Assembly (NCBI GenBank): GCA_028693705.1
Contig: JAQUUX010000002.1
Coordinates: forward strand, 1 to 64,000
DNA length: 64,000 nt
Source of the DNA: Lachnospiraceae bacterium
GTDB lineage: Bacteria; Bacillota; Clostridia; Lachnospirales; Lachnospiraceae
Direction of reading: 5' to 3'
This document shows positions 8,971 to 12,783 of this stretch, piece by piece (position 1 is the stretch's first letter; each line of letters starts with the position of its first letter). Under the pieces are notes generated by a model. It saw only the letters and a program-made list of their open reading frames with translations, was not told the DNA's origin and ran no database searches. The position numbers and the translations under genes are program-made.

Positions 8971-8998
8971 AAAGATTCCGGGACGTCCCGGAATCTTT
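8971..8998. terminator. Perfect-palindrome terminator
   Basis: AAAGATTCCGGGAC is followed directly by its exact complement, giving a 14-bp stem that works for both converging genes. Its right end touches the original stop codon of the decayed kinase gene. Confidence 0.9.
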
Positions 8999-11900
8999 TA
9001 TTTCAAATATCTGCCCAATACCTAATACATCATTTCCGTATCAATTGGTTTGGAAATATGATCGTTCATACCTGCATCGAGTGACCTGGCAATATCCTCC
9101 ACAAATGCATTGGCTGTCATGGCAATAATCAGTATCTCTTTTGCCTGCGGATGGGAAAGCGCTCGGATTGCCTTAGTCGCATCATAACCATTCATGTTCG
9201 GCATCTGCACATCCATTAAAATGGCATCATACGTTCCCGGTTCAGACTCTGAAAATATCTTAACAGCCTGTGCACCGTCTTCCGCCAGATCTACGATAAA
9301 TCCAACCATGGTAAGTAATTCTTTTGCAATTGCACGGTTGATTTCTATATCATCTGCTACCAGTACATGTTTTCCGGTAAAATCATAATTTTCTGATTTC
9401 GCAGACTGATTTACCAGCTTACCATTACTCAATGACATCAATAGATTAAACAAGGTAGACTGGAATACCGGTTTGTCAATGCATACATCCACGCCTACTT
9501 CTTCAGCCTCTTCAGAAATTTCATTGGTATCATACGCTGATACAATCATCACAACGGTACTTTCCGACTGTGATTGCCTGATTTTCTTTGCTACATCCAG
9601 ACCGTTCATACCATCCATTTTCCAGTCTGACATACAAATGGTATAAGGATCTTTGTCGTTTCTGGCTTTTGTCATCTTCTCAATGGCAAGCATCGGATCA
9701 GACTCACAGTCATGAGCAATTCCGATATGATTTAAAATACCGGACAGGTAATCCAGATTTTCCTTATCATCATCTACTACCATGACTCTCATGGCGTTGA
9801 TGTTATCAGTATTTCCTTTCATCTGATTTTCAGCAATGTCAAAAGGAATATTAAGAGTAAAGGTTGTACCCTGTCCGGCATGGCTGTCTACCTGGATCTC
9901 ACCATGCATCAGTTCCACCAGATTCTTGGATATGGATAAACCAAGCCCGGAACCGCCATGTTCTTTTGCGGTTAAAGCAGTCTCCTGTTCAAAAGGCTTG
10001 AAGATACGATTCATATATTCTTCGCTCATACCGCATCCGGTATCCTGTACCACAATCTGCAGCATCAGATGTTTTTCATCTTTCATTTCTTCTGCCATTT
10101 TAAAGGTAATATTGCCACCCGGCTCTGTGAATTTTAAGGCATTGGACAGCAGATTCAAAATGATCTGCTGCAATCTCAGCTGATCCCCCACCAAGAATTC
10201 CGTCATAACGTTATTCATTCTGGCATCAAACTGGATACCTTTTGTTTTGCACTGTGCAAAATATAATGTAGTCACAGTCGCCACGATTTCTTTTACATCA
10301 AAATCTGCATGTGCGATTTTAATCTTTTCACTTTCAATTGCTGACATATCCAGCACATCATTGATCAGACTCAGTAAATGCTTAGAGGATATTAGTATCT
10401 GCTTTAAATATTCTTCAACTTTACCCGGTTTTTTTATATTACTCCGTGCCAATGTTGTTTCACCAATAATGGCGTTCATTGGTGTTCGGATCTCATGGGA
10501 CATACGTGCCAGGAAATCGCTCTTTGCCCGGTTTGCCTTTTCCGCCTGAAGTACTGCTATCGACAATTGTTCATTTTTATCCTCCAGCTGCTGATTAGTA
10601 TCTCCAATCAAATGAAGCTTCCGGTTACGATTCACAATATAAACAGCGCTGATCAGTACCACCAAAAATGCCAGTACGCCAATCACGGCAAGTAGAATTC
10701 TGTATTTGTAACAAATCTCACCGGTGCTTAACTGATAAGGCATGGCTGTCGTATATTTGATAATGCACTGCTGTATCTCCTGGTCACTGATCTGCTTAAT
10801 CGCTTTATCAATGATAGAAAGTATCATGTCACTATCCAGTTCTTCATTTGAAAACATATTCATCAAACTAAATTTCTGAAAGTATCCGGAATTCGGCACA
10901 GTTTCCAGCGCTTCAAAAATCGGTTTATTAAGCTGATAATCTGCTATGTATTGATTTTGTAAAGTGCAGTCCGCTTCGCCTTTTGCAACTGCCTTAAAGC
11001 ACGCTTCCACCGAGTCATAATTTATCTGTTGATACCCTGGGAATGTATCAGCGATCAGTTCCTTCAGATTATCTGATCCTGTGGAAATTGCCATAGTCTG
11101 TCCACTATTTTCTTCCGGGATAAATCCTTTTTTACAAACAAGAACCGCCTGGGTCTCCATATAGCTGTTACTTATATATGCACCATATTTTTCCTGATTA
11201 AAGCTATTATTTCTCACTCCGGACATCAAATCAATTTGATCAGTTGCAAGAGATTCCGCATTTGTTTCTTCTACGCTAACGGGCACATAGGAAAACTTTA
11301 ATCCGCTGTACTTGCTGATACTATCTAAAAAATCCATCGTGATACCGGTCAGTTCTCCGGTTTCAGGATCCAGATACGATCCTCTTTTATAGCAATTTTC
11401 AAAACCGGAAGTTCTTCTATGTAGTCCAATTCTTCTTTAGAATATGGATCATCCCTATAGATTGGGAAATATTTATCAATTAAATCAGTCTGAAAATTAG
11501 GATCCTCTATTTCAATCTGATCCAGCGCATTGTTTAATTCCTCGCCCATCGCTGTATCAGTCTTTCTGAAGATATAGTAATAAGGAGCATTTCCTGCTTT
11601 TCCGATCAGCTTCATATCACTGCCTGCACGCATAATGTTATGAATTCCGGCATCTATTTCACCATTTCTCAAAGCTTCAAATAAAGCGGTGCTACTGTCT
11701 TAAAGTGTAATGTCTGCTTTAAATCCATGATTCTTTGCATAAGTTTCCAATAGTCCCACATACGAGGTGTTTTTCTCCGCACCCCATTTCAAATTGGAAA
11801 AGTGTTCGAAATCCTCATAAATCAGATCATCTCTGTCCGCCATGGCCAGTAATGCACCATAATCCTTGCCAATCTGATTACTAAAGCCATATTCTACCAC

Positions 11901-12257
11901 TCGCTCCGGACTCATCTGCGCAGGTGCCAGCAAATCGATTACACCGTGATCCAGCATATACATGGCATCAGACCAGTTATCTGCTTTCACATACTCATAT
12001 TTCCAGCCGGTAATATCCGCAATCTTATTCAGATAATCTACATCATAGCCCACGCATTCCCCATCGTCTCTAAAGGAATGAAAACCTTCCATTTCATAGA
12101 CGCCGACTTTGACACGTCTGCCGTTTCCTGCTGCCATGACCTGCGTCGGATAGATAGCAATCAATGCTATCCAACCGGCGAGCATGATACTTCCTGTCAA
12201 TATAAATATGGCTTTCAGCCAAAAACAAAACCAATTGGTTTTTCCGGTCTGTCTCAT
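8998..12257 (-). pseudogene. Hybrid sensor histidine kinase, disrupted
   Basis: The intact ancestor would carry a signal/TM segment, two periplasmic-binding-type (SBP_bac_3) sensor domains, a TM helix, a HisKA box (MSHEIRTPMNAIIGE), an HATPase domain (DTGCGM, GGSGLGL) and two receiver domains (MSDWKMDGMNGLD; LMDVQMPNMNGYD). Three lesions break it: an in-frame TAA at 11700-11702; a one-base loss in an A-run near 11385-11388 that shifts the frame; and a TAG at 9022-9024, eight codons before the original stop at 8998. Translation from 12257 would give only the first sensor part. The kinase part (9022-11337) could be made only from an internal start. Confidence 0.88.
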
Positions 12258-12384: not shown

Positions 12385-12783
12385 TTATCTCTTTGAGAAC
12401 TGTGGAGCGCGACGAGCTGCTTTGAGACCGTATTTCTTTCTTTCCTTCATTCTTGGATCTCTGGTTAAATAACCTGCCTTCTTTAAGATAGGTCTGTAAT
12501 CAGCATCTGCCTGAAGTAATGCTCTTGCGATACCGTGTCTTACGGCACCAGCCTGGCCTGTTGTTCCGCCACCTTTTACAGTAACGTTAACGTCCATTTT
12601 CTCTACATTATCGGTTGCTGTCAGAGGCTGACGAACGATAACCTTTAATGTCTCTAATCCGAAATATTCATCAATAGGTCTTTTATTGATAGTGATAACA
12701 CCTGTTCCAGCTGATAAATAAACTCTGGCGATGGATTTCTTTCTTCTGCCTGTTCCGTAGTACTTTGCTGCTGCTTTAGCCAT
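12385..12783 (-). CDS. rpsI: 30S ribosomal protein S9
   Basis: S9 (132 residues) is a small-subunit head protein whose C-terminal tail reaches the P-site tRNA. The family's [14 protein letters not shown] near 10-23 and the terminal SKR tail are present. It is 26 bases after rplM and shares its promoter and terminator. Length and ends are normal. Confidence 0.98.

Follow-up and report, generated by a model that had tools for sequence, protein, structure and literature searches.

Pseudogenes of two-component sensors are a general phenomenon in bacteria. Sensor kinases of the BvgS and EvgS type combine tandem SBP_bac_3 (Venus-flytrap) domains with a membrane segment, HisKA and HATPase_c domains and receivers, and the BvgS chain carries in addition a C-terminal HPt domain and a PAS domain. 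In the account cited here, BvgS is described as the prototype of the Venus-flytrap sensor kinases (PMC4352136). We analysed a stretch of 64,000 nucleotides from a Lachnospiraceae bacterium (contig JAQUUX010000002.1 of assembly GCA_028693705.1), hereafter the window, in which one gene is predicted by its layout to encode a BvgS-like Venus-flytrap (SBP_bac_3) hybrid histidine kinase (Table 1). The phospho-acceptor histidine is residue 281 of ORF 9025-11337 and lies within the motif SHEIRTP. In this ORF alone the SBP_bac_3 match stays below the Pfam cut-off; the intact homologue from genome G042 also contains two SBP_bac_3 stretches. The kinase is BvgS-like in layout only, as it has two receivers and, at an E-value of 0.001, gave no HPt or PAS match in either the window ORF or the G042 homologue. 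The NCBIfam model for EvgS (NF007420) assigned 223 bits to the window ORF, which was scored without the first part of the sensors, and 212 bits to the intact G042 homologue, both below the cut-off of 1,995. Unlike kinases of the BvgS and EvgS type, moreover, the window copy is broken.

Table 1. Position and state of the window kinase gene, its parts and neighbours, and of the SBP_bac_3 hybrid kinases found elsewhere in the genome.
Feature	Coordinates	Strand	Description and basis
Kinase gene	12257 to 8998	-	start ATG 12257
Sensor domain 1 (SBP_bac_3)	11508-12083	-	profile match over cut-off, through one TAA
Sensor domain 2 (SBP_bac_3)	~11403-10753	-	match 11053-11403 over cut-off
Transmembrane segment	~10700-10620	-	limits read by eye
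HisKA	10527-10327	-	Pfam on ORF 9025-11337
HATPase_c	10188-9838	-	Pfam on ORF 9025-11337
Receiver 1 (Response_reg)	~9795-9418	-	Pfam; limits read by eye
Receiver 2 (Response_reg)	9366-9031	-	Pfam on ORF 9025-11337
Fragment A, 185 aa	11703-12257	-	start, signal-peptide-like N terminus (judged by eye), initial portion of SBP_bac_3 sensor domain 1
Lesion 1, in-frame TAA	11700-11702	-	sequence read directly
Fragment B	11379-11699	-	completes sensor domain 1, in frame with fragment A
Lesion 2, frame change at ~11379	11377-11381	-	13 bases fewer, net, than in intact homologues
Fragment C, open frame	9025-11379	-	sensor domain 2, transmembrane segment, HisKA, HATPase_c, two receivers
Lesion 3, TAG	9022-9024	-	eight codons short of original stop; sequence read directly
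Original stop TAA	8998-9000	-	sequence read directly
Terminator-like hairpin, 12-pair stem	8971-8998	-	at original gene end; hairpin scan
Presumably rpsI (ribosomal protein S9), open	12385-12783	-	upstream neighbour on same strand; ORF list and sequence
T-rich hairpin between rpsI and kinase gene	~12360-12338		read by eye; absent from the list of the hairpin scan
Paralogue C106	L118:3633-6977		broken; two in-frame TAA
Paralogue C26			broken; two stops and a frame change
Paralogue C62			broken; TAG
Paralogue C30			broken; TGA
Paralogue C146			broken; TAG, end ~46 residues short
Paralogue C25			open; 1,213 aa
Second C106 copy			open; 1,203 aa
Paralogue C90	L117:6095-8575		counted as open; 826 aa

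The initial annotation had proposed a large sensor kinase gene with three lesions, and this is borne out by direct reading and by comparison with intact homologues. The nearest of these is encoded in G042, a genome of the same family, as an open frame of 1,087 aa with the same layout, and fragments A, B and C are co-linear with it. Fragment A, which matches the Pfam family SBP_bac_3 with an E-value of 2.7e-12, aligns with residues 21-176 of the homologue (70% identity over 156 residues) and fragment B with residues 178-284 (70% over 107 residues), while fragment C aligns from residue 289 onwards (62% over 785 residues). The TAA was annotated correctly: it occupies one codon, and the homology is in frame before and after it. 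The TAG also stands as annotated; the tail VLGRYLK and a stop follow it in frame, and the sequences of homologues and paralogues continue past its position. For the remaining lesion, a one-base loss had been placed near 11385. The frame change is real, but its size is not one base: compared with two intact homologues the net loss amounts to 13 bases, that is, four codons and one base. Four residues of the G042 and G223 homologues (the latter of 1,104 aa, with the same four-residue spacing as G042) are missing, and the two window frames overlap by one base. Past the frame change, the frame of fragment B reaches a TGA at 11349-11351. The deletion site carries a short inverted repeat (11365-11383), which may have promoted the deletion.

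The search that yielded the nearest homologue covered 397 genomes of the family, 185 of which gave a match with an E-value of 1e-60 or better, and two candidates were scored in each. Among 40 other genomes, none was marked as belonging to the same genus. A contig database search, from which the records of the window's own genome were possibly left out, returned a best match of 45% identity. Synteny was of no help, because the surroundings of the homologues in the stretches from G042, G223, G256 and G368 showed no ribosomal neighbour. Within the same genome, the kinase-receiver half of the window gene (9025-11337) shares about 70% identity with a paralogue at L117:3310-6078 whose sensor is ABC_sub_bind and not SBP_bac_3. 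Both types occur in G042 and in G223, as judged by sequence start and identity, which is suggestive of an ancient exchange of sensor modules.

The age of the decay was approached by counting private changes in the window and G042 copies with G223 as outgroup. Among positions conserved across the homologues compared (203 sites, defined on 4 to 8 sequences, varying by segment), private changes number 5 in the window copy against 10 in that of G042. The absence of an excess at these sites supports a decay that is young compared with the divergence from G042, and to this extent agrees with the initial annotation, which had called the decay recent. A mild relaxation is nevertheless possible. Over 1,056 sites, 98 private changes fall in the window copy versus 72 in the G042 copy (p = 0.055), an excess located mainly in the receivers (23 versus 12, p = 0.09, and 14 versus 5, p = 0.06), and the window copy also departs at nine sites where six homologues agree.

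The genome contains nine SBP_bac_3 hybrid kinases, and the frames of six are broken while three are open (Table 1). For C146, two intact homologues align through the TAG and halt about 46 residues short; a search with these homologues found no adjoining piece in another frame, so that a frame change is not supported as the cause of the short end. The C90 protein, although counted as open, lacks most of sensor 1 as well as 37 HATPase_c residues when compared with G042, and is possibly inactive too. None of 27 kinases of the class examined in four relatives is broken (11 in G042, 9 in G223, 2 in G256 and 5 in G368); each is a single open frame of 913-1,221 aa. This count comprises the SBP_bac_3 matches within a kinase gene plus G223:C42, which was confirmed with Pfam, and leaves out G368:C36, where the query matched in the sensor part only. 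The difference between six of nine and none of 27 is significant (Fisher p = 4e-5, or 2e-4 with the window gene excluded), but its size is uncertain since the four relatives were picked for holding the best homologues, and late truncations could escape a score based on one open frame over sensor and kinase. When kinases are taken as a whole, with or without SBP_bac_3, in-frame stops affect 6 of 24 matches here, and the four relatives show them in 2 of 91 (p about 0.001). That comparison used matches spanning the kinase core, to an E-value of about 1e-36, with weaker and receiver-only matches dropped and with the window gene and C146 entered as having no stop. Since kinases lacking SBP_bac_3 also carry stops, the decay seems biased towards hybrid kinases in general, and towards the SBP_bac_3 class above all. 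As in other bacterial two-component sensor pseudogenes, the window gene has stops and a frame-changing deletion in a sequence that is still recognizable; unlike in those, one receptor class has six of its nine members broken in a single genome.

Control families were scored for in-frame stops only, leaving frame changes uncounted, and the matches, to domains or single proteins, are shorter than the kinases. In this genome, stops were found in 1 of 105 ABC_tran, 1 of 37 GGDEF and 1 of 14 MATE matches (the last at a contig start), in none of 10 SBP_bac_8 or 19 aminotransferase matches, and in 2 of 55 HATPase_c matches, both within broken kinases of the SBP class. The corresponding values in G042 are 1/33 for GGDEF, 2/26 for MATE, 0/73 for HATPase_c, 0/15 for SBP_bac_8 and 0/22 for aminotransferase. 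Outside the kinase gene, 54.4 kb of the window is covered by 82 greedy ORFs with a minimum length of 60 aa; 35 of these reach 200 aa or more, and some short ones are possibly spurious. No other split gene was noticed in the window at the level of ORFs.

Our preferred reading, to which we assign a probability of about 0.83, is that the gene is a recently inactivated pseudogene of a BvgS-like hybrid kinase within a wider decay of hybrid kinases. The frame is disrupted relative to an intact homologue, which is the mark of a pseudogene. Judging from the domain families, the two tandem Venus-flytrap domains of the intact form would bind small solutes outside the membrane, and the phosphate from autophosphorylation at HisKA would pass to the receivers and from there to an HPt protein and to a response regulator. 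The two nonsense changes and the net loss of 13 bases are expected to block the full protein, and translation from the native start should give a sensor 1 piece of no more than 185 aa. The loss would then represent one case of a hybrid-kinase decay in this genome that is strongest in this sensor class. We infer that no function is left in the window gene, and that this lineage has less need for these receptors.

The main rival to this reading is that the lesions are sequencing or assembly errors and that the gene is intact in the organism. The genome is a draft of 160 contigs, and its many paralogues with similar kinase cores can confuse assembly. Against this, three lesions lie within one 3.3-kb gene whereas the other ORFs of the window are open, two of the lesions are single stop codons, the control families are nearly clean and the lesions are concentrated in one receptor class, so that we consider errors of this kind unlikely. 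Read-through of the stops, or their use as a regulatory on/off switch, might be thought to explain why the homology continues past in-frame stops in several paralogues. Such a mechanism, however, would not bypass the frame change caused by the 13-base loss, and all 27 kinases of the class in the relatives are open. As the stops are of all three kinds and stand at different places in each paralogue, we rejected programmed read-through, and we give the whole idea hardly any credence.

It had also been proposed that the kinase-receiver part could still be made from an internal start, giving a shortened protein that works without its outer sensors. The frame is indeed open from 11379 to 9025, with HisKA, HATPase_c and both receivers, and the conserved sites are retained. 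An open kinase frame, here of 771 aa, is also what retention of a shortened kinase would predict. In contrast, 21 in-frame starts precede His 281, and a ribosome-binding match of at least 4 bases at a distance of 4-12 bases is absent from every one of them; the native start passes the same test with AAGG at 9 bases. The TTG at 10566 (residue 258), just before HisKA, is preceded by GGAGG at 14 bases and is borderline; TTG is a weak start codon. When at least 5 bases were demanded, the TTG at 10452 alone qualified, which lies after the histidine, and this threshold missed the native start too. Receiver 2, furthermore, is without its last residues owing to the TAG. A working shortened kinase from an internal start thus appears very improbable, even more so than errors in the assembly.

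Returning to inactivation, a single broken kinase is ordinary, and it is the class bias that constitutes a new observation, of modest interest; no paper on this kinase decay was found by title or abstract. Tentatively, and with somewhat less than even odds, the lineage could be losing the Venus-flytrap hybrid kinases as a class, all at once and through independent recent mutations, while genes for transport and metabolism remain intact, the ligands or a shared response no longer mattering in its niche. If so, the genome would offer a snapshot of receptor-class loss in progress. Should the class bias hold, it would mean that a lineage can come to dispense with sensory receptors of one type jointly, and the signals still in use would be indicated by the copies that remain whole (C25 and the second C106 copy).

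Several smaller observations concern the other kinases. Four hybrid kinases without SBP_bac_3, at L123, L125, L127 and L128 (C156, C98, C31 and C36), are apparently split by stops or frame changes. In the broken C106 paralogue, the motif around the phospho-acceptor histidine reads IHEIRTP in place of SHEIRTP. Loss of a common HPt partner was considered as a cause but is not supported, as 5 HPt matches occur in this genome and 2 to 12 in the relatives. Downstream of the broken C26 kinase lie an HPt gene and a GGDEF gene (L119:6347-8235), and the latter matches in two frames and itself looks broken.
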